In this document: positions 15,467 to 46,141 of the stretch, in pieces | How the letters are laid out: each line of letters starts with the position of its first letter | How positions within the stretch are numbered: the first letter of the stretch is position 1 | Assembly (NCBI GenBank): GCA_022402535.1 | Contig: JAKRSD010000020.1 | Location: 62,001 to 126,000 of the forward strand | DNA length: 64,000 nucleotides | Direction: 5' to 3' | From: Flavobacteriales bacterium | Lineage (GTDB): Bacteria > Bacteroidota > Bacteroidia > CAIKAF01 | Made by a program: the position numbers and the translations under genes | The notes under the pieces: model-generated | Databases searched by the model: none | What the model was told of the DNA's origin: nothing | The model's input: the letters and a program-made list of their open reading frames with translations, nothing else

Positions 15467-17821
15467 ATGATTAAAAAAATTGACATAGAGGCCTTCGGAC
15501 TTTATAAAAACTATAAATGGGACACCGAAATTGGGAAAAACGAGACCTTTAGACGAGTAAATATCATTTATGGACGTAACTATTCGGGTAAAACAACTTT
15601 GTCAAGAATATTAAAAAGTGTTGAAGACAAACATATTAACCCAAAGTACAGTAACGGTAAGTTTCAAATTACTTTTGACAACAACCATATCGTCAATGAA
15701 AACAATCTAGAAACAGAACTCCAAGACTATAAAATCCGAGTTTACAATTCAGATTTTGTAAAAGAGAATTTAAGTTGGCTACATAATGATGACGGAACAA
15801 TAAACCCATTTACAATTCTTGGAGCTAAAAATGTTGAACTTGACAAGAAAATAAAAGAAATTGAACAAAAACTCGGTTCAATTGAAAGTGAAAAAGGACT
15901 TTTATATAATCACTCAATCGTTGAAAAAGAATTTATTGAAGCTATAAAGGCGTATGAAAAATCTGTTAATGATTTAGACGATAAGCTAAGAGATAAAGCC
16001 AAAGAAATAAAGAATAATACTGCACTTTATTCACTTCCTACTTATCAAATCAATACAATAAAAACCGACATTCCGAAAGCAATAAAACAAGGACAATTAA
16101 CGGCAGAACAAATTATCAACAACCAAAAACTTTTAAAAGAAGACCAAAAGTCTGAAATTTTAAGATTAAAAGAAGCCAAACCGGGGTTTGAAACTTTCTA
16201 CATAAAAACCCAAGAGTTACTCCAAAAGAAAATCAAGCCAAGTCAACCAATAACAGATTTGGTAAATGACAGTCTTTTACAAGAGTGGGTGCGACAAGGT
16301 ATTGATAAACATAAAGACAAAAGAGAAACCTGCGGCTTTTGTGGTAATCTCATCAATAAAGACCTTTGGGAAAAACTCGATGCGCATTTTAGTAAAGAAT
16401 CGGAAGAACTAAGAAGAGAAATAAAGTCAAAAATTGACAATTTAGAACAAGCAAAAAATAACCTTGATAACTTTATCAATTTAACCAAAGAGCAGTTTTA
16501 CTCTAATCTTCATTCTGACTTTGATGCTGTATTTAAAAAATGGTCTGCGACCACAAAAACTTATTCTTCTAGCATCGAGTCATTGACAAAAGCATTAAAT
16601 GAAAGAGAGAAGGATATTTTCAAAGAGCGCGAATTAGATAAAATCGCAGATGTTTCAGAAACAATCCTTGATACAATCAAAGAGTTCAATGCACTAATTG
16701 ACCTGCACAATAAAAAATCTGAAACACTAGAGATAGACCAAAAAACCGCAAGACAAGAATTACGTCTTTCTGATGTTGCAAGTTTTATAGGCAAAATCAA
16801 TTACGAAGACGCTTTGGACACTATTCAAAAATTAGAAAGCGTTCAAAAGACAAAAAAGGGAGATTTAGATAAGTTGGCTACCCAAATCAACGAATTTGAC
16901 GAAGAAAAAAGAACTCTAGAAGCCCAGTCGAAAGATGAAAGCAAAGGTGCTGAATTAGTAAATCAACATCTAACTCATTTCTTTGGACACAATGAACTTA
17001 AGCTTATAGCAGAAGGCAATGCCCCTAATATTCTATTTAAAATAGTTCGAAATGACGAATATGCTTCAAATTTGAGTGAAGGTGAATGTAGTTTAATTTC
17101 CTTTTGTTATTTCATCGCTAAAATGGAAGACGAATTAAAGGACGAATTGAATAGCAGCAAACTTATCATATATATTGATGACCCTATTTCAAGTTTAGAC
17201 AGTAATCACATTTTCTTTATGTTCAGCCTAATAGAGAGTGTTATTGCCAAACCCAAAAAATATTGTCAGTTGTTTATTTCAACTCACAACTTGGACTTTT
17301 TGAAATATCTCAAACAATTAACTTTTCCCAAGACAAAAGAAGTTTCAGGTGGAAAGGATAAAAAACACTTTTTGGTCGAGAGAAATAAAAAAAACAGAAC
17401 AACTTTAAAATTAGCACCTGAGTATTTAAGAGAATATATTACAGAGTTTAACTATCTGTTTTATCAAATATACAGTTGCTCAAAATCAGACGCAGAGACA
17501 ATAGAGGATAACTATCAATACAACTTCGGAAATAATATGCGAAAATTTCTTGAAGCGTATTTGTTTTACAAATATCCTACAGGCAAACTTTCTTTTGAGC
17601 AAAGAGTCAAGAAATTCTTTGCTAATGATGATGTTTCTTATAACCTAGTCAGTAGAATTATAAACGAATATTCGCATTTGGGAGAACATTTTGACAGGGG
17701 TTTAGAGCCTATCGATGTTGACGCAATGAGAAAAATATCCGAAGCAGTAATGAAGAAAATTGAGATAATAGATAAACCACAGTTTGAAGCATTATTAGAA
17801 AGTGTAGAAAATGAAGCTTGA
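15467..17821 (+). CDS. RloC-like AAA_13 ATPase, candidate zinc-hook anticodon nuclease
   Basis: GRNYSGKTTLSRIL Walker A; coiled coil with CGFCG CxxC hook; NLSEGECSLISF ABC signature; LIIYIDDPISSLD Walker B; STHNLD H-loop; C-terminal RKFLE...NEYSH consistent with the R-E-H anticodon-nuclease triad. Confidence 0.75.
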   Translation: MIKKIDIEAFGLYKNYKWDTEIGKNETFRRVNIIYGRNYSGKTTLSRILKSVEDKHINPKYSNGKFQITFDNNHIVNENNLETELQDYKIRVYNSDFVKENLSWLHNDDGTINPFTILGAKNVELDKKIKEIEQKLGSIESEKGLLYNHSIVEKEFIEAIKAYEKSVNDLDDKLRDKAKEIKNNTALYSLPTYQINTIKTDIPKAIKQGQLTAEQIINNQKLLKEDQKSEILRLKEAKPGFETFYIKTQELLQKKIKPSQPITDLVNDSLLQEWVRQGIDKHKDKRETCGFCGNLINKDLWEKLDAHFSKESEELRREIKSKIDNLEQAKNNLDNFINLTKEQFYSNLHSDFDAVFKKWSATTKTYSSSIESLTKALNEREKDIFKERELDKIADVSETILDTIKEFNALIDLHNKKSETLEIDQKTARQELRLSDVASFIGKINYEDALDTIQKLESVQKTKKGDLDKLATQINEFDEEKRTLEAQSKDESKGAELVNQHLTHFFGHNELKLIAEGNAPNILFKIVRNDEYASNLSEGECSLISFCYFIAKMEDELKDELNSSKLIIYIDDPISSLDSNHIFFMFSLIESVIAKPKKYCQLFISTHNLDFLKYLKQLTFPKTKEVSGGKDKKHFLVERNKKNRTTLKLAPEYLREYITEFNYLFYQIYSCSKSDAETIEDNYQYNFGNNMRKFLEAYLFYKYPTGKLSFEQRVKKFFANDDVSYNLVSRIINEYSHLGEHFDRGLEPIDVDAMRKISEAVMKKIEIIDKPQFEALLESVENEA

Positions 17822-18234: not shown

Positions 18235-18894
18235 ATGAACATAACAAGACGTGAAACCCTAAAACACTTATCCCTGTTGGGCACCTTGGCCTTTTTGCCC
18301 CAATCGGCTTTCGCCTTTTTGGAGGGAGATTTACCCCTGCATGTTATCGGCATCGGCGGGGCGGGTTCCAATATGGTGGAACAACTGCACCAACAAGGAA
18401 TTGCAGGAAAATTCACCTGCATTTCGGAACCGGCAAGACCGCACCTGCCCCGGGATATCCGATTTATCGAATTTGTGCCGCCCGGCGAACCCGTGTACCA
18501 CAAAGGAGAACTGATGTATAGAACCTCCAACTGGGAAGCGGAACTACAAATTCCTGAATCCGTACGGCAACTGTTTCATCCCCATGAAAAATACGTGCTG
18601 CTTGCCGGACTGGGCGGGTACACGGGCACCAAAATGACCGTGGCCTTGTCCTTACTGCTGAAAGAGCAAAATATCCCTGCCATTACGGTCTGTTCGCTGC
18701 CGTTTCAGTTTGAAGGAGAACAACGAGCCTCACGCGCGCAGGAAGCCGTCAATGAGTTGAAACACTTGTCTTCTTTTCATTACTATCCGCTCGAAAACAT
18801 CCGTGAAAGGTACGGAAACCTAACTATAGAAGAAGCCTTTACCAAAGCGAATGATCAGGCGTTTGAATTGTTCCATGCGGCATCCGGAGCATAA
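18235..18894 (+). CDS. FtsZ-like N-terminal GTPase-domain protein with Tat-like signal peptide
   Basis: MNITRRETLKHLSLLGTLAFLPQSAFA (TRRxxLK, hydrophobic stretch, AFA) followed by VIGIGGAGSNMVEQL, VLLAGLGGYTGTKMTVALSLLLKEQNIPAITVCSLPFQFEGEQRASRAQEAVNELK, collinear with the FtsZ G-box, GGGTGTG signature and KPFxFEG segments. Confidence 0.75.
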   Translation: MNITRRETLKHLSLLGTLAFLPQSAFAFLEGDLPLHVIGIGGAGSNMVEQLHQQGIAGKFTCISEPARPHLPRDIRFIEFVPPGEPVYHKGELMYRTSNWEAELQIPESVRQLFHPHEKYVLLAGLGGYTGTKMTVALSLLLKEQNIPAITVCSLPFQFEGEQRASRAQEAVNELKHLSSFHYYPLENIRERYGNLTIEEAFTKANDQAFELFHAASGA

Positions 18895-18961: not shown

Positions 18962-19510
18962 ATGAAAAATATTGATAAAGAAAGTCTGGATAAAGCCTTC
19001 CGCTTATTTGAAAGTGGTGAGATTAACTCCGTTGAAATCGGCACCACTAAAGGGTTACAACAGATTCATCACTATCTATTTTCGGGCCTGTATGATTTTG
19101 CAGGCAAACTGCGCGAAAAAAATATTTCAAAAGGAGGTTTCCGTTTTGCCAATGCCCTGTATCTGAAAGAAATTTTGGAGAAAATAGATCAGATGCCTGA
19201 AAATACCTTTGAAGAAATCATAGCCAAATATGTGGAAATGAATATCGCCCATCCTTTAATGGAGGGTAACGGCAGAACCATGCGTATTTGGCTGGACCTG
19301 CTGTTGAAAGCTAAACTTCAAAAAGTGGTAAACTGGCAATTTGTAGATAAAACCCTTTATCTACAAGCCATGGAACGCAGTCCTGTGAACGACTTAGAAT
19401 TGAAAACGCTTCTCGGTGCAAACCTTACCGAAGACATCAACAACCGGGAAATTATTTTTAAAGGCATAGAACAATCTTACTATTACGAGGGATACGAAAT
19501 AGAAGATTAA
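18962..19510 (+). CDS. Fic family protein, class III architecture
   Basis: [12 protein letters not shown] Fic core; C-terminal [11 protein letters not shown] fits the inhibitory [ST]xxxE[GN] motif. Confidence 0.9.
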
Positions 19511-27135: not shown

Positions 27136-30100
27136 TTATTTTTTTGACAATTTCCAAATTTTATTTGAGGTGGTGTTACTGGATGATATCAGTTGAATTT
27201 CAAGATTCAGGTTTTGGGCGATTTGTTGCAGTTCATCTGCTCCGAAAAAATATAACGGATTGGTGGTTTTATTGAATTTCATAAACCGGGTAGACCAATT
27301 TTCGGTAGAAATGGTTTTATCGTGTTTGGTGTCCTGCGAATCGGCATCTTTAATGAGCATGACCCCATCAGGAAGTAAAGAAGCGGCACAACGCTGCAAG
27401 AGATTTTTCCGCTCCAAAGCGGGCAGATAATGCAATACATCCGACAGCACAATTCCGGAACAGGAATCCGGCGTAAAATCCGCTAATCCGGCATGTACAA
27501 ATTTCACCCTGTCCGATTTAGAAAAACGATGGGAAGCCGTGGTAATTTTTTCTTCATCGTAATCGCAACCCGTAATGTCGCGCTCATCACTCATAAAGGA
27601 AAGAATGTAGGCCATAAAACCATATCCGCAGCCCAAATCGTAAATTTTTCCTTTACGGGGTAAATGTTTGTGAAAATCGGAATAATAATTTTCAAATTTG
27701 ATTTTTATGCGGCAATACCATTCCAAACCCGGATTTAGGTATAAATAATTTTGAATGAGACGGTCGCGATGAAATCGGGTTCCCGCATGGTTTTCCAACA
27801 AATCGGCATATTCGGCACGCATGAGGGCGCATACTTTTTTACTGATTTCGGAATAGCCGGTATTTTCAGGAAAATCGGCCGGTTTCAAACGAGGCATCAC
27901 CTTCACGAATAAATCGGCCCTTCGGCCCCAAAATTCACCTTTATGCAAAAAGTCGCCGGTGCCGAATATCACCAAAGGCAAAATATCGGCACCAATTTCC
28001 TGGGCCACCTTAAAAGCGCCCTTATGAAAGCGGTGAATTTTATTATCCGTGCTGCGGGTTCCTTCCGGAAAAATTGCCACGATATTGCCTTCCTGAATTA
28101 ATTTTTCAATCACCGGTGTCATGGTTTCCACCCCCTGCGACACATCCAGAAATCCGGCCATGCGGCTCACCGGACCAAAAATGGGATTGTTATAAATTCG
28201 GTTATTGGCCGTTAGCACAATGCGGGGCGATAGCGAAAACAGATACACCACATCGATAAACGACTGATGATTGGCCACCAGAATACCGGGGTTTTTAAAT
28301 TTTTCGTCTGAATGTTTGATAACTGTTTTGCGGAACATGAAAACCACCCCGATATAAATACGGGCCCAAATCATCAGCCATAAACGAATGAAACGGGTAC
28401 GGTATTTTCTGGGAATAAAAACAGAAATCGAGACCAAAATACCCAAAGGCAGCAGATGAAAAAAGCCCGAAACCACCATGAACCAAGCCCATAGGGTAGC
28501 GATGGCATTTTTAAAGGTAAGCGGCTGCATGCCCCGGCGGGTTTTAGAAGTAATGAGCAGATGAAACAACCACGGCAAAATCGCATAAGACAAAAACAAT
28601 ACGGTGCCGATTCCTGCCACACCCATTGCGGCAATGGATTTCAGGGCGGGATGTCCGCTCAGCATCATGGCCCCCACCCCCAACATAGTGGTAAAAGCCG
28701 ACAGAAAAACGGAGGTTTTATAACTTTTTAAATTGAGCGTTCCCGAGCGGTAATCCTGCAACAATCCATTCATAATAAAAATGCAGTAATCATTTCCCAA
28801 ACCGAACACAAACGTGCAGATAATGATATTGACAATATTGAATTTCAAACCCAGAATGCCCATAAAACCGAGTGTCCACACCCAGCTCAGGATAAGCGGA
28901 ATATACGTGAGTGTGGCCAGTTCAATTCTGCCGTAAGAAATAAGTAATATAACAAACACCACGATAGACGAAATGCCCACCAGTTTATCTAAATCCACCT
29001 GAATGATTTCTATTAAATCGGACGCGAGTTTTTTACGGTCGAACATAAACACCCCATCCGATTCACCGATGGCCTCGTACACGGCGGGTTTGTCAACCTC
29101 TTTTACTTTCAGCACGCTCACGATATGTACCCCCGTTTCGTTTGCATTCACAAATTCACCGAGAAAGGCTTTTTGAATGGGTTCAAATTCTGCTAACGGA
29201 ACCGGTGCAAACGATTTATCGAGCGTTTCAAAAAAGCCGGCAAAAGCCGTTTCTTTAAATCCCAATCGGGAACCTGATGTGCGGATGCTGTTTTTTACAA
29301 AGGCTTTCTTTTCAGGTGTCCAAAAGGCATTCCAACGGTTTATTTTTTCCTGTTGGGCCCTTTGGTTCAATAACAGTTCTCCGGGACCCGAAATCCCCGC
29401 AATCAACTTTTTATCGCGTAAATCCGAAATAATACTTCTCTTGCCTTCCATCCGGGAAAGCGCTTCTTCCATATTTTTTCCGGAAGCAATAAAGAATACC
29501 GCTTTTTTAGACACATCACTTCCCTGGCTCAAAATCGCTTCCGATTCAGCCAGTTCGGGAGGCATATAACTGAAGTTTTCAGGGTCGCCTTCAAACTGCG
29601 GCGAATTAAAAAACAGCACACACACGGCCGTAAAAATTACCCCGGCGGCAATCACCAGGTTTTTTTTGTGGTAATCATATCCCGTGAGTTTTTCTATCCA
29701 GTTCACCTGCACTTCGTTCACTTCTTTTTTGGGAGTTTTCAGCAGATGCGGAAGCACAATCAACGAAGCAACAGCTGCCGTAAACACGCCCGTTCCCGCA
29801 AAAATCCCTAAGTCGCGCAGGGCTTCGGAATTGGTGAATAACAGGCAATAAAACGCACAGACGGTGGTAAAACTGCTCAGCAGCATACCCCCCGAAACAT
29901 CATGCAGGAGGGTTTTTACATTTTTCACCGAACGGAAATGGGTGAACACATGCAGTGAATAATCAATGGTAATACCCAGCACCATACCGCCCACGCCCAT
30001 TGCAATGGCCGATGCCGTTCCTTTCAAAAAATATAACGCTAAAAATCCAGCCGATGCTCCTATGGCCGCAGGGATAATAAGAATAAAATAATAGAAGGGA

Positions 30101-30969
30101 TTGCGGTAAAAATAGAGCAGAAACAAAAACAAAAAAATCCCCACGGCCGACATGATGATATTGATGTCGGTTTTAATGCGCGAAGCGTTGCCCGCAGCTA
30201 CCAACGGCGCACCGAAATAACTCACCACCACACCGTGGTCGGCCTCAACCCGTTGTTTTATTTCAGCCAGTTTTTCAGCCAGAATTCCGTTTAGACCCGT
30301 TTTTTTCGACGCATTTTCGGGTTGTATGTAGATCATCAGCTGTTGCCCGTCAGCAGAAAAAATACATTCCTTTTCTATCCGCAGTCCTTCGTCCGATTTA
30401 AGGGATTGTAATCTGCGCAGGGCACGCGGTGTCATGGAAAGCGGATCGCGCAGAAAGGTGGTTTTTAAAAAGGAACCGGCCGGCGATAACAAGGCGCGGT
30501 ACCCCGTGCTCAGTGCTTCATCAATTTTTTCTTCGGTCAGCATCGAATCCACCGAAGCATAATCCGATTCATTCAGGTAAAAGGGTAAAAAGCGATAAAA
30601 TAAATCGAAGGCATCGGTCATCTGCGCTTCATCCGGACGGAAAATAATTTCTTTGATAAACCCCGGTTTCAGGTTTTCCAGTTCGGCGGCTACCTGTTCA
30701 CCCGCGGCAATAAGTTTTTCGGCGGGTTCCGTTTCGGGGGTTTGGGTAGAAACCGACAACACAATTTTATCGGTAAACGATACCTGTTCCATCACCCGGT
30801 TAAACTCGCGGGCCCGCTCATCGGTAGGCATTACTTTGGTGATGTCCTCTTCGTAATCAAGATGAAAAGCGGCGAAAATTCCCGAAGCGATAAACAGCAC
30901 CGTAAGCAGAAACAGCAGGGCTTTTCTGGGCTGAAAAAATCGAAATAACCGCCAAAACAATCGGGACAT
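27136..30969 (-). CDS. Fused MMPL/RND-type transporter, lysophospholipid acyltransferase and class I SAM methyltransferase
   Basis: RND/MMPL TM blocks (LGITIDYSLHVFTHF; LGNDYCIFIMNGLL), PlsC NHQSFIDVVYLF and FPEGTRSTD, C-terminal IYDLGCGYGFMAYILSF methyltransferase motif I. Confidence 0.92.
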   Translation of the reverse strand: MSRLFWRLFRFFQPRKALLFLLTVLFIASGIFAAFHLDYEEDITKVMPTDERAREFNRVMEQVSFTDKIVLSVSTQTPETEPAEKLIAAGEQVAAELENLKPGFIKEIIFRPDEAQMTDAFDLFYRFLPFYLNESDYASVDSMLTEEKIDEALSTGYRALLSPAGSFLKTTFLRDPLSMTPRALRRLQSLKSDEGLRIEKECIFSADGQQLMIYIQPENASKKTGLNGILAEKLAEIKQRVEADHGVVVSYFGAPLVAAGNASRIKTDINIIMSAVGIFLFLFLLYFYRNPFYYFILIIPAAIGASAGFLALYFLKGTASAIAMGVGGMVLGITIDYSLHVFTHFRSVKNVKTLLHDVSGGMLLSSFTTVCAFYCLLFTNSEALRDLGIFAGTGVFTAAVASLIVLPHLLKTPKKEVNEVQVNWIEKLTGYDYHKKNLVIAAGVIFTAVCVLFFNSPQFEGDPENFSYMPPELAESEAILSQGSDVSKKAVFFIASGKNMEEALSRMEGKRSIISDLRDKKLIAGISGPGELLLNQRAQQEKINRWNAFWTPEKKAFVKNSIRTSGSRLGFKETAFAGFFETLDKSFAPVPLAEFEPIQKAFLGEFVNANETGVHIVSVLKVKEVDKPAVYEAIGESDGVFMFDRKKLASDLIEIIQVDLDKLVGISSIVVFVILLISYGRIELATLTYIPLILSWVWTLGFMGILGLKFNIVNIIICTFVFGLGNDYCIFIMNGLLQDYRSGTLNLKSYKTSVFLSAFTTMLGVGAMMLSGHPALKSIAAMGVAGIGTVLFLSYAILPWLFHLLITSKTRRGMQPLTFKNAIATLWAWFMVVSGFFHLLPLGILVSISVFIPRKYRTRFIRLWLMIWARIYIGVVFMFRKTVIKHSDEKFKNPGILVANHQSFIDVVYLFSLSPRIVLTANNRIYNNPIFGPVSRMAGFLDVSQGVETMTPVIEKLIQEGNIVAIFPEGTRSTDNKIHRFHKGAFKVAQEIGADILPLVIFGTGDFLHKGEFWGRRADLFVKVMPRLKPADFPENTGYSEISKKVCALMRAEYADLLENHAGTRFHRDRLIQNYLYLNPGLEWYCRIKIKFENYYSDFHKHLPRKGKIYDLGCGYGFMAYILSFMSDERDITGCDYDEEKITTASHRFSKSDRVKFVHAGLADFTPDSCSGIVLSDVLHYLPALERKNLLQRCAASLLPDGVMLIKDADSQDTKHDKTISTENWSTRFMKFNKTTNPLYFFGADELQQIAQNLNLEIQLISSSNTTSNKIWKLSKK

Positions 30970-31113
30970 GGGCAAAAGTGCTAAAAAAAATCGGGTCAGG
31001 GATAAGCTAGGGTAGCATCTGACCAAAAACAATACACCAACCGTTTCATTATTGTTTGCTTGAATTAACGAAATTATCCATCGCTCTCATTCTCCACACT
31101 CACACTGATTCGT

Positions 31114-34855: not shown

Positions 34856-35818
34856 GTGCAGGAATTATTACACAAATATCTAAAAGCGTTCAAAAAGCTA
34901 AGAATAGACAGAGCTCATGGAGTTGCTCCACATAAACCTGTTTTGCTAATTTCTGTATTGCAAACATTCCAAAATGGATTAAACAACAACCAAAAGATCT
35001 ACATAACTCCAGAGTTAGTAGCATTCTTCAAATTAAATTGGAATTCTCTTGTAACTTCAAATCACGATTGTCGTTTCGCATTACCCTTCTATCATTTAAC
35101 AAGCGATAAATTTTGGAAACTTATTCCAAACTCTGGCTTTGAAAATATTCTTCAAATATCAGCATCTATGCGAAGTTTCGCCAACTTAAATGCTGCTGTC
35201 AACTGTGCAATAATAGATGAAGAACTATTTGAATTGATGATGGATAAAAAAGGTAATGAAATTTTGACCCAGTTTTTATTGGATGAATATTTCCCAAACC
35301 GTGAAAGCAATTTCAATAATTCATCGGACGGTCAGCAAAATTTATTTGATGAAATAGAAAATAAAATTCTTATGGAACCATCCGAAGAATATCAACAAGA
35401 AATTAAGTATCTTCTTGAACAGAAAAACGAAGAAGAAATTTTTCTGCGAGGGAGCTTATTCAAAAGAGAGATTCCCAAAATATATAACAACACTTGTTGC
35501 ATTTCAGGGATGAAAATTGATGCAACTATCAATGTTTCTATGATTGATGCTTGCCACATTGTGCCATTCAGTGTAAGTTATGATGATACTATTAAGAACG
35601 GAATTGCGTTGTGTCCGAACCTTCATAGAGCATTTGACAGAGGATTGATTGCTGTTGACGAAAGTTATAGAGTTGTTGTTTCAAAGTCTTTTAAAGAGCA
35701 TGAAACGAATTATAGTATTAGGGCTTTTGAGGGTAATGAGATTATGTTGCCATATTTGAAAAAATTTTATCCTAAAATAGAGAATTTTCAATGGCATTTA
35801 AAAAACGTTTTCAAATAA
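34856..35818 (+). CDS. SBD-HNH-type phosphorothioate-sensing restriction endonuclease candidate (GTG start)
   Basis: N-terminal HKPVLLISVL...FFKLNWNSLV...ALPFYHL sulfur-binding-domain-like segment; C-terminal RGSLFKREIPKIYNNTCCISGMKIDATINVSMIDACHIVPFSVSYDDTIKNGIALCPNLHRAFDRGLI is an HNH domain of the ScoMcrA-like type. Confidence 0.8.
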   Translation: MQELLHKYLKAFKKLRIDRAHGVAPHKPVLLISVLQTFQNGLNNNQKIYITPELVAFFKLNWNSLVTSNHDCRFALPFYHLTSDKFWKLIPNSGFENILQISASMRSFANLNAAVNCAIIDEELFELMMDKKGNEILTQFLLDEYFPNRESNFNNSSDGQQNLFDEIENKILMEPSEEYQQEIKYLLEQKNEEEIFLRGSLFKREIPKIYNNTCCISGMKIDATINVSMIDACHIVPFSVSYDDTIKNGIALCPNLHRAFDRGLIAVDESYRVVVSKSFKEHETNYSIRAFEGNEIMLPYLKKFYPKIENFQWHLKNVFK

Positions 35819-36697: not shown

Positions 36698-36856
36698 TTA
36701 TTTCATTTGCTTCAAAACGCTTTCAGAAGCATATAAAAAAGCGTTTCCTTTTTTGATGAATTCGAGTTTTCCTGCTTCACGCAGATGCATCACATCACAG
36801 GCTCGTATTTTTAGCGTTTTCATTACCTCTTTGCTTTTAAGCCATTTTTGTTCCAT
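36698..36856 (-). CDS. 52-aa excisionase/MerR-like HTH protein (not in supplied ORF track)
   Basis: Read from the minus strand: MEQKWLKSKEVMKTLKIRACDVMHLREAGKLEFIKKGNAFLYASESVLKQMK*; start overlaps the KilA-N stop (TAATG). Confidence 0.55.
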   Translation of the reverse strand: MEQKWLKSKEVMKTLKIRACDVMHLREAGKLEFIKKGNAFLYASESVLKQMK

Positions 36857-37680
36857 TACTTTAACTTTTTCAATCCCTTTGCGTTTACCAAACTTTTCAT
36901 TTGGGTAATGGCAATTTGGTTGAGTTGTATTAATCTTTCTTTTTGCATCAACCCCTGATGAATTAGCACCGCATTGATACTTTCAAGATTTGATAACACT
37001 ACCAATTGCTCAATGCTGGCATGGTCGCGTATGTTGCCTTCTAATTTTGGGTTAGCATCTCTCCATGCTGCGGCAGTAATACCAAACAACGCCACATTTA
37101 ATAAATCAGCTTCCGTAGCGTATGTATGGCTTGCTTGTTTGCCGGTGATGGTTTGGGGTATAAGTTTTTCTTTGATGGCATCGGTATGTATGTGATAGTT
37201 AACCTTGGCTAAGGTGCGTTGTAAATTCCATTCTAGTTTTAGGCGGTTATTTTCATCTTCTTTTAGGCGTTGAAATTCTTTGATGAGGTAAAGTTTAAAA
37301 CCCGAACTTACCCATGATGCGAATTCAAAAGCAATATCTTTCTGTGCAAATGTTCCTCCGTTATTTCCCGGTTTTGATACAATGCCTTTGGCATTGGTGC
37401 TTTCAATCCATTTTGTAGGAGACATGGTAAAAGAATTGCTCCCGGCTTCAAACAGAAAGGAGTCGAATTCGACCCCTTTGAAATCAGGATTATTTAATTG
37501 TTCCCAAAGCCCCAAAAACTCCAATGTGGTTCGGTTTCGCATCCAGTTTTTTACAACATCTTTTGGCTCTTCTGCGTTTTTCTGCCGCGCTATATCCGTA
37601 AGTGAGATATAATCTTCATTATTGATTTTTAGCGTTGCTATCGAAAAGCCTTTTACGATTATGATTTCTTTTTTTGCCAT
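36856..37680 (-). CDS. KilA-N domain protein
   Basis: YISLTDIARQKN...VVKNWMRNRTTLEFLGLWEQLNNPDFK...KWIESTNAKGIVSKPGNNGGTFAQKDIAFEFASWVSSGFKLYLIKEFQRLK. Confidence 0.88.
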   Translation of the reverse strand: MAKKEIIIVKGFSIATLKINNEDYISLTDIARQKNAEEPKDVVKNWMRNRTTLEFLGLWEQLNNPDFKGVEFDSFLFEAGSNSFTMSPTKWIESTNAKGIVSKPGNNGGTFAQKDIAFEFASWVSSGFKLYLIKEFQRLKEDENNRLKLEWNLQRTLAKVNYHIHTDAIKEKLIPQTITGKQASHTYATEADLLNVALFGITAAAWRDANPKLEGNIRDHASIEQLVVLSNLESINAVLIHQGLMQKERLIQLNQIAITQMKSLVNAKGLKKLK

Positions 37681-41076: not shown

Positions 41077-41910
41077 GTGGATATGAATAAATTAAAATTA
41101 TTTGAAAGCAAAAAAGTCCGCACCCACTGGGATACAAAAAAGGAAACATGGTATTTTTCAGTGATTGATGTGATTGAAATATTGACGGGAAGTTCAATCC
41201 CCAAACGCTATTGGAGCGATTTAAAAAAGAAGCTCACCAAGGAAGGAAGTCAGCTGTACGAAAATATCGTACAACTGAAATTTGCAGCTGCTGATGGAAA
41301 AAACTATGCTACCGATTGTTTAGACACGCCGAATTTACTTCGTCTTATTCAATCCATCCCATCGCCTAAAGCAGAGCCTTTCAAACAATGGCTGGCAAAA
41401 GTCGGATATGAAAGGATGCAGGAGATACAAGATCCTGAGATGAGTTTAGAAAGAGCTCGGGAAAATTGGCAAAAATTGGGTAGAAGCGAAAAGTGGATTC
41501 AGCAACGAATGACAGGTCAGGAAACCCGCAATAAATTAACCGATTATTGGAAAGAAAGCGGCGTAAAAGAAAAAGATGAATTTGCATTCTTAACCAACAT
41601 TATCCATCAAGAATGGACAGGATTGACAGTGAAGAAACATAAAGATTTGAAAGGTTTAAAATCTCAAAATTTGCGTGACCATATGAGCGAGGCGGAATTG
41701 ATTTTTACGGCATTGGCAGAACTTTCCACCCGCCAAATTGCAGAAACAGAAAAAGCAAAAGGTGTTCAAGAAAATGCCATTGCAGGTAAGAAAGGCGGCA
41801 AAATTGCTAAAGATGCAAGATTGGCATTGGAACAAAAAACCGGGAAAAAAGTGGTAACAAAAGAAAACTTTTTACCCCCGCCAAAAACCAAGAAAAAACT
41901 CGGTAAATGA
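41077..41910 (+). CDS. Bro-N/DinD-like protein
   Basis: WYFSVIDVIEILTGSSIPKRYWSDLKKKL Bro-N segment; ESGVKEKDEFAFLTNIIHQEWTGLTVKKHKDLKGLKSQNLRDHMSEAELIFTALAELSTRQIAE resembles DNA-damage-inducible protein D. Confidence 0.85.
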   Translation: MDMNKLKLFESKKVRTHWDTKKETWYFSVIDVIEILTGSSIPKRYWSDLKKKLTKEGSQLYENIVQLKFAAADGKNYATDCLDTPNLLRLIQSIPSPKAEPFKQWLAKVGYERMQEIQDPEMSLERARENWQKLGRSEKWIQQRMTGQETRNKLTDYWKESGVKEKDEFAFLTNIIHQEWTGLTVKKHKDLKGLKSQNLRDHMSEAELIFTALAELSTRQIAETEKAKGVQENAIAGKKGGKIAKDARLALEQKTGKKVVTKENFLPPPKTKKKLGK

Positions 41911-44439: not shown

Positions 44440-44979
44440 TTACAATTTATCTAATTTATTTACAAATGTTTTAAAATAAGCACAATTAAGTGTTTTATCA
44501 AAGCATATTTTATCAAACAAATCTGGTAAATCTCCTTCTTTGTATGAACTATTCTCCTTAAGTAATTTTTTGGGGTCAACTACTTTCATTACATCTTCAA
44601 CTTCATTAATTGCACATGAATACTTTTTATTAAATGTTTCAATATCAGTCAAGATTAAAGCTTCAATTTCAAAAATATGAAGTAAAAAAAGAGCCTTATT
44701 ATTTACTATTGATTTTGAATTATTAAAATATTCATTGCGTTCTAGTATCTTTTTCCGGTCCGTTTCCAAGGAGTCTAAATCTCTGATGAATATCACATAA
44801 TCAGGACGTTTTACAATGTAGCTAGCTCGGAGTAAATGTTTTGTTTTTTGATTATCCAATTCACTTCCTCTAATATCTTCTATCAAAGTTTCAAATGTAA
44901 AATGACTGAATCTTTTATTAAGCAAATTTTTCATTGCTTTTGTGTCAGAAGGAGCTTCGCCAACCAATCCGATTTTCAT
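44440..44979 (-). CDS. TOPRIM-like (DUF4276-like) protein, candidate effector of an ATPase/TOPRIM pair
   Basis: [20 protein letters not shown] (acidic E motif) and VIFIRDLDS (DxD) spaced as in TOPRIM folds; 10 bp downstream of an AAA ATPase gene. Confidence 0.65.
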
Positions 44980-44989
44980 ATTTCCTCAA

Positions 44990-46141
44990 CTAAATTCGAT
45001 TAAAGTCAGAATGAAGCCAATAATCACTCATAAAACCAACTTCATTCATGTAAACATTTGCATCATGAGATTCCTGCTCTGTCATATTTCGAAGTCGGGT
45101 GCCTTTATCTTTTGTCCATTCGCAAATCAAAACACGGTCTAATTCATCTTTAGAAAGTATATTAAGAACCTGTGGTGAATGTGTTGTAATTATTATCTGC
45201 TTATCATCCGCTTCTTCTTTAAGGAAATTCATCAATAAGTGAAGCTGATGAGGGTGAATTCCTAACTCAGGCTCTTCAATAAATATAATTTTAGATACAG
45301 GTTTTTCTCTTGTAAAATAAACAACACCTTTTCCCCAACCATAATTTCTAAAATTTATAATTTCAGAGATAATAAAAATAATTCTTTGTGTACCATCTGA
45401 CAAATTGTCAAACTTATACCAGATATCATTTAATAAATACTCAAACTGTAAATTTTTTATTTCAAAAAAGCCGTCTTTTATGCTTATCTCAAAATTAGGA
45501 TTCAATCTAATTTTTTCTACAACCGTATACTTGCAAACCTTTACTTCCAATAGTTTAATAAATTCCTCTATTATGGCCCTCTTGTCTTCATAAATTTGTG
45601 AATATTTACTTTCGACAGGTAGAACCTGAAATGGAACTAATAGTGCTTTTAGAAAATTATTTTCGTTTTCTGATATTATTAATTTAATTAATTCTTGGCT
45701 ATGATTATTATTATCAATTTTTTCCCTAACATCTATCGAATCTGAAATTACACCGATTTTGATTGGAATTTTGAATTTGATTAAAGATGAAACAAAATCA
45801 AAATTTTCATGTAATAATTCAATAAACGGCATTGAAGTATCTACACTATTGATTGCAATTGTTTGGCTATTTGTAAATATTTCGTCTTTATTTGTTTGAA
45901 TACTTTTTACTGTAATTTCTTTTTTTAAGCCACCTTTAATCAGCTTAAAAACAGAACTTATACCCACAAATTCCGAAAAATTAAAACTTAACAACTTAGA
46001 CAAAAAAGTAACTATGTTACTTTTCCCACTTCCATTCCGTCCAATTATAATGTTTAGCCCAGGCTTAAATTGAACCTTTGTGTCCACTATTGATTTATAG
46101 CCTTTTAAATGAGCTTCACTTATGTAAACGTTTTCATTCAT
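44990..46141 (-). CDS. AAA family ATPase (AAA_15/AAA_21, OLD-like)
   Basis: LKGYKSIVDTKVQFKPGLNIIIGRNGSGKSNIV, LSDGTQRIIFI, IIFIEEPELGIHPHQLHLL, IITTHSPQVLNIL. Confidence 0.9.
   Translation of the reverse strand: MNENVYISEAHLKGYKSIVDTKVQFKPGLNIIIGRNGSGKSNIVTFLSKLLSFNFSEFVGISSVFKLIKGGLKKEITVKSIQTNKDEIFTNSQTIAINSVDTSMPFIELLHENFDFVSSLIKFKIPIKIGVISDSIDVREKIDNNNHSQELIKLIISENENNFLKALLVPFQVLPVESKYSQIYEDKRAIIEEFIKLLEVKVCKYTVVEKIRLNPNFEISIKDGFFEIKNLQFEYLLNDIWYKFDNLSDGTQRIIFIISEIINFRNYGWGKGVVYFTREKPVSKIIFIEEPELGIHPHQLHLLMNFLKEEADDKQIIITTHSPQVLNILSKDELDRVLICEWTKDKGTRLRNMTEQESHDANVYMNEVGFMSDYWLHSDFNRI

Follow-up and report, generated by a model that had tools for sequence, protein, structure and literature searches.

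FtsZ relatives and a short FtsZ-like gene

FtsZ and the tubulins are regarded as polymers of the cytoplasm that are driven by GTP. The plasmid and phage tubulins (TubZ/RepX and PhuZ) are full-length GTP-driven polymers as well. Among the diverged relatives of FtsZ, the FtsZl1 proteins (Makarova and Koonin 2010) are long, carry a coiled coil and a helical C-terminal domain, and are encoded in operons with vWA, GTPase and kinase genes (PMC2875224). One archaeal FtsZ-like protein, an FtsZl1 member, is fused to N-terminal transmembrane helices, and membrane-fused relatives of FtsZ are therefore not wholly without precedent (PMC2875224). The FtsZl2 proteins keep T1, T4, T6, T7 and H7 and have a C-terminal region of ∼300 aa (PMC2875224).

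We analysed an FtsZ-like gene in a stretch of 64,000 nucleotides from a Flavobacteriales bacterium (the whole stretch is referred to as the window). The ORF lies exactly where the first-pass annotation had placed it (18235-18894, + strand), starts with ATG and encodes 219 aa followed by a stop codon. The leader and the FtsZ-collinear segments quoted in that annotation are all present. The features, with the evidence for each, are as follows.

18235..18894, + strand: whole ORF, leader plus truncated FtsZ N-terminal domain (ORF, Pfam and PDB matches; homologue at L020:1474-2166)
18235..18315, + strand: residues 1-27, twin-arginine-type leader with TRRETLK, hydrophobic core and AFA (sequence; aligned leader of the homologue)
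18343..18375, + strand: residues 37-47, T1 glycine loop (GIGGAGSN), kept (FtsZ alignment)
18481..18534, + strand: residues 83-100, at the place of the FtsZ T3 loop (G.GAG..P); the T3 motif is absent (FtsZ alignment)
18607..18633, + strand: residues 125-133, GLGGYTGTK, T4 signature loop with Gly replaced by Tyr129 and the last Gly by Lys (FtsZ alignment)
18697..18726, + strand: residues 155-164, LPFQFEGEQR, T5 loop; Glu160 and Arg164 kept (FtsZ alignment)
18784..18804, + strand: residues 184-190, T6 position; the guanine-binding Asn of FtsZ is Leu186 here and Leu in the homologue too (FtsZ alignment)
18826..18891, + strand: residues 198-219, helix H7 and then the stop (FtsZ alignment, structure model)

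Since the reading frame ends with helix H7, the protein has no counterpart of the FtsZ T7 loop (N..D..D) or of its C-terminal domain, which agrees with the earlier description of a protein without the T7-loop half. Upstream of the ATG the frame stays open for just 9 further codons. TTG codons at positions 15, 18, 21 and 29 are in principle possible later starts, and a start at codon 29 (18319) would produce a protein with no leader; these starts are disfavoured because the leader is conserved in the homologue.

The protein resembles the N-terminal GTPase domain of bacterial FtsZ (PF00091; TIGR00065) in its fold, its T1 loop, its GG.TG core, its PFxFE..R segment and the order of the elements through H7. 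It departs from FtsZ in its twin-arginine leader, in the absence of T7, the C-terminal domain, T3, the T2 Asp, the T6 Asn and the last Gly of T4, and in forming, with its homologue, a separate clade on long branches. Like FtsZl1, it is a diverged FtsZ-like domain found alongside a normal FtsZ, and in both the T6-T7 elements are not recognisable (PMC2875224). Unlike FtsZl1, it is a lone domain of 219 aa, much closer to FtsZ itself, with an AAA_13 ATPase and a Fic protein as neighbours; neither the coiled coil and helical C-terminal domain nor the vWA, kinase or GTPase neighbours of FtsZl1 were found. With FtsZl2 it shares being an FtsZ-like paralogue that lacks conserved neighbours (PMC2875224), but its T6 Asn is a Leu and it has neither T7 nor a C-terminal region. 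It is, like TubZ/RepX and PhuZ, a divergent prokaryotic member of the tubulin superfamily and gives fold matches to phage tubulins; this similarity is, however, weaker than that to FtsZ, and no homologue was found on mobile elements. In the open-access literature searched, we found no description of an FtsZ domain preceded by a Tat-type leader, and within that literature the earlier statement that no such family had been described stands. As far as searched, the protein is an undescribed variant within the FtsZ/tubulin superfamily, real and rare.

Fold, paralogy and the one homologue

The protein matched the Pfam Tubulin model (PF00091) with an E-value of 4.7e-11, above the cut-off of that model. 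The NCBIfam ftsZ model TIGR00065 also matched (8.3e-17), with a score of 61.5 bits that does not reach the equivalog cut-off of 295.2. All 49 PDB sequence matches at E<=1e-3 were FtsZ, the best (6.4e-15) extending across residues 35-206, and the part that can be aligned with FtsZ is residues 35-208. The similarity to FtsZ is not due to chance.

A single-sequence AlphaFold2 model was weak (pLDDT 57, pTM 0.58). Its best 22 matches in the PDB were nonetheless all FtsZ, with E-values down to 3e-7. A second model, for which an alignment including 31 FtsZ N-domains was supplied, reached a pLDDT of 77.6, exceeded 90 across most of residues 111-180, had the elements through H7 in the FtsZ order and gave structure matches with E-values down to 1.7e-11. 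As the FtsZ rows help the second model, the single-sequence model is the fairer test of the fold. The tubulin-superfamily fold proposed in the first-pass annotation was thus upheld, FtsZ being the best fold match even from the single sequence, and a fold with no FtsZ/tubulin similarity, which would have overturned that proposal, was excluded by structure prediction. The predicted GTPase-domain fold, together with the significant profile match, places the protein in the FtsZ/tubulin superfamily. The signature loop of the superfamily, GGGTG(S/T)G, is only partly kept, being GGYTGTK in the window protein and GGYTGGT in the homologue.

The same genome encodes a separate, complete FtsZ (544 aa) directly after an FtsA-like gene, and the window protein is 32% identical to the N-domain of this FtsZ. 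The leader-bearing gene is therefore a paralogue and not the division protein, and the full-length FtsZ elsewhere in the genome would have freed this copy from division.

Searching 395 sampled genomes of the class, we observed one true homologue (G328:C6; 1.9e-36), far above every ftsZ match. It comes from a different bacterial family and has an open frame of 232 aa and a protein of 230 aa (L020:1474-2166), which starts MNNAQNKKTSRRQVLKSLISLGAAALLPSVLKA and ends at the same point after H7. The two proteins are 37-38% identical end to end (residues 4-219, 107 bits, vs 54 bits between the window protein and the FtsZ of its own genome). At 24 positions they share a residue that never occurs there in 62 FtsZ. 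In a tree of the pair and 63 other proteins (62 canonical FtsZ and one plasmid FtsZ-like protein), the pair formed a single clade with support of 100/99, which joins beside the FtsZ of the window's own family; the exact place of branching is unsure because the branches are very long.

At the thresholds used, no member was found in the other 15 genomes of the window's order or in the other 86 genomes of the homologue's family, and a profile of the pair found no third member in further, overlapping samples of the class, order and phylum. Of the class matches, two with short open frames (G225 and G292) were rejected as members, being real ftsZ genes cut at contig ends. Genome contigs searched with the window protein alone gave no homologue; searched with the pair alignment they gave 40 loci, and the 23 that were read out were canonical full-length FtsZ. 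The IMG/VR scans gave no homologue, and loci with the GLGGYTG DNA pattern encode no relative. Phages and plasmids likewise gave no homologue and just weak matches, namely annotated phage FtsZ, one unannotated phage record and a 320-aa FtsZ-like protein of a Marinomonas plasmid. The last of these, encoded on Marinomonas algicola plasmid NZ_CP061942.1 (L019:6364-8945), matches Pfam Tubulin at 3.9e-32 and keeps its T-loops; its gene overlaps the end of a PcfJ-domain gene and its branch in the tree is very long. The family of the window protein seems to be real, rare and patchy, with two members known.

A truncated, rare and patchily distributed gene could be a decaying ftsZ fragment that acquired its leader by chance. 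This explanation is already close to refuted and we hold it to be very improbable: the frame is intact, the GC content is host-like, and a homologue in another family has the same ends, the leader and the 24 shared residues absent from the 62 FtsZ. A pseudogene or a chance leader is unlikely because the homologue has the same leader, likewise ends after H7 and shares many departures from FtsZ.

The leader and the eroded nucleotide pocket

The leader of the window protein (residues 1-27) is MNITRRETLKHLSLLGTLAFLPQSAFA. Ahead of the hydrophobic core stands TRRETLK in the window protein and SRRQVLK in the homologue; at this composition, the probability of [ST]RRxxLK occurring by chance within the first 20 residues is ∼2e-5. 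Between the two proteins, 11 of 25 leader positions are identical compared to 70 of 191 in the body, so that the leader matches the body in conservation, and none of 200,000 shuffles equalled the score of the leader alignment. The first-pass annotation had proposed looking for homologues that keep both the twin-arginine leader and the GGxTG loop, and the homologue keeps the two together; homologues without the leader would have spoken against that annotation, and the sole homologue retains it. The annotation had also suggested a search of the genome for tatA and tatC: TatC (1.2e-66) and two TatA-type genes are present. TatC is encoded in the genome of the homologue as well. The window's genome also encodes T9SS-type and PorP/SprF-like proteins, which suggest that it belongs to the Bacteroidetes.

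By the positive-inside rule, a twin arginine before a hydrophobic core puts the following domain outside. The domain is therefore predicted to face outward, with the leader either cut or kept as an anchor. From the leader we infer export across the inner membrane, or anchoring in it, probably via Tat. The protein could instead be exported or anchored likewise by Sec, with the twin arginines incidental or merely an aid to anchoring, and we consider this unlikely though worth keeping in mind. The leader does have a hydrophobic core and an AxA-like end, and the Pfam TAT_signal model misses the window protein. The same model does hit the homologue at 6.1e-4, with 20.1 bits that fall just short of the cut-off of 22.7. 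Against Sec, RRxxLK is kept in both members and the hydrophobicity is mild (mean KD 1.12 and 1.56 in the two members). Neither leader has a Gln after the likely cleavage site, whereas most Bacteroidetes Sec/SPI substrates expose one (PMC5837995); the main text of that paper makes no mention of Tat. The missing Gln is a weak hint that fits Tat and proves little. Taken from the leaders, Tat would be the route rather than Sec.

We compared the nucleotide pocket of both members with 62 FtsZ. Both retain GGxGS in T1, GG.TG at the core of T4, PFxFE and the Arg of T5. Both have lost the T3 loop, the Asp in the NTD motif of T2 and the T6 Asn, in whose place each has Leu. GGGTGTG has become GGYTG(T/G)(K/T), with the third Gly replaced by Tyr129 in both and the last Gly by Lys or Thr; Tyr at position 129 occurs in none of the 62 FtsZ. 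Judged from the aligned residues, the GTP site is eroded in both members, and in much the same way.

In FtsZ structures, T3 is in contact with the gamma-phosphate, and the guanine is bound by the Asn of T6. Because both are gone, GTP binding is probably weak or lost, with the domain itself retained, although what is left of the site (T1, a part of T4, and Glu and Arg of T5) counts against such a loss. Since T7 is missing, the protein has no catalytic residues to offer for hydrolysis of the FtsZ type. The earlier designation as a GTP-binding fold is consequently not supported, as both members lack the T3 loop, the T2 Asp, the T6 Asn and the final Gly of GGGTGTG; here the first-pass annotation needs its chief amendment.

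The same changes bear on the idea, also raised in the first reading, of an FtsZ decoy or cap. As a cytoplasmic regulator of FtsZ, the protein would use its leader as a membrane anchor and its N-domain to cap or titrate FtsZ filaments at the membrane. The polarity of FtsZ filaments is established, and an FtsZ N-domain without T7 could add at just one filament end; the 32% identity to the FtsZ N-domain of the same genome is also consistent with such a role. However, the loss of T3, the T2 Asp and the T6 Asn takes away GTP contacts on which the interface depends, and the twin arginine ahead of the core predicts a domain on the outside. The decoy or cap is thus weakened, because the pocket changes also cost the N-domain some of its half of the longitudinal interface and because an outward-facing domain is predicted from the charges of the leader. 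We regard a regulatory role of this kind as rather improbable.

Gene neighbourhood and the proposed periplasmic role

The upstream neighbour (15467-17821, +) encodes an AAA_13 ATPase that matches PADLOC candidate PDC-S06 (2e-277) and, more weakly, PrrC. The downstream neighbour (18962-19510, +) encodes a class-III-type Fic adenylyltransferase (NF046029, PADLOC candidate PDC-S04). As these are candidate defence families, the three genes could form an acquired defence cassette in which the FtsZ domain is a sensor or a mimic of a target. The FtsZ-like gene, though, has a host-like GC content of 0.50, whereas the neighbours are GC-poor (0.32 for the AAA_13 ATPase and 0.38 for Fic), and it therefore looks resident and the neighbours acquired. 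A mobile origin is marked down on this GC content, the neighbours of the homologue are different, and no homologue was found in plasmids, phages or IMG/VR. We consider a defence cassette highly improbable.

Other defence-type genes occur elsewhere in the window. In a unit of two genes at 44440-46141 (-), the first encodes an AAA ATPase with matches to AriA/HEC-01A/GajA-type defence ATPases and the second a DUF4276 (HEC-01B-like) protein; together they are likely an ATPase-plus-TOPRIM-type defence pair. Candidate defence genes at 34856-35818 (+), 36856-37680 (-) and 41077-41910 (+) encode an HNH restriction-type endonuclease, a protein of PDC-S22 and one of PDC-S13 with Bro-N. A single 1298-aa chain encoded at 27136-31032 (-) combines an MMPL exporter with a phospholipid-type acyltransferase and a methyltransferase.

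In the homologue's genome, 25 bp separate the gene from a DUF932-domain gene upstream of it, as if the two formed one operon (L038:5195-6848), and a TonB-dependent receptor gene follows. The DUF932 protein was dropped as a candidate partner, as it had no match in the window's genome in a search run without a positive control. The gene neighbourhoods of the two members have nothing in common from which a function could be named.

The reading we favour, by a modest measure and from sequence comparison, is that of a small FtsZ-derived family whose N-domain is exported or anchored by Tat, does not polymerise and has a repurposed cleft. An ftsZ copy would have lost everything past helix H7 and acquired a twin-arginine leader. 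What was left, a Rossmann-type N-terminal domain, would fold in the cytoplasm, and Tat would carry the folded domain across the inner membrane or leave it anchored there, where it would act as a monomer on the periplasmic side. The old nucleotide cleft would have kept its shape and been remade; with such a cleft, the ligand or partner would most likely be something other than GTP, and polymerisation by the FtsZ mechanism would not be expected.

The chances seem to us about even that this is the first family of the tubulin/FtsZ superfamily working outside the cytoplasm, as a Tat-exported N-domain freed of polymerisation and GTP and with a new periplasmic ligand or partner. If so, the FtsZ fold can be put to new use beyond the cytoplasm as a domain that does not polymerise, and the family would provide a natural case of an FtsZ N-domain that folds and lasts alone.
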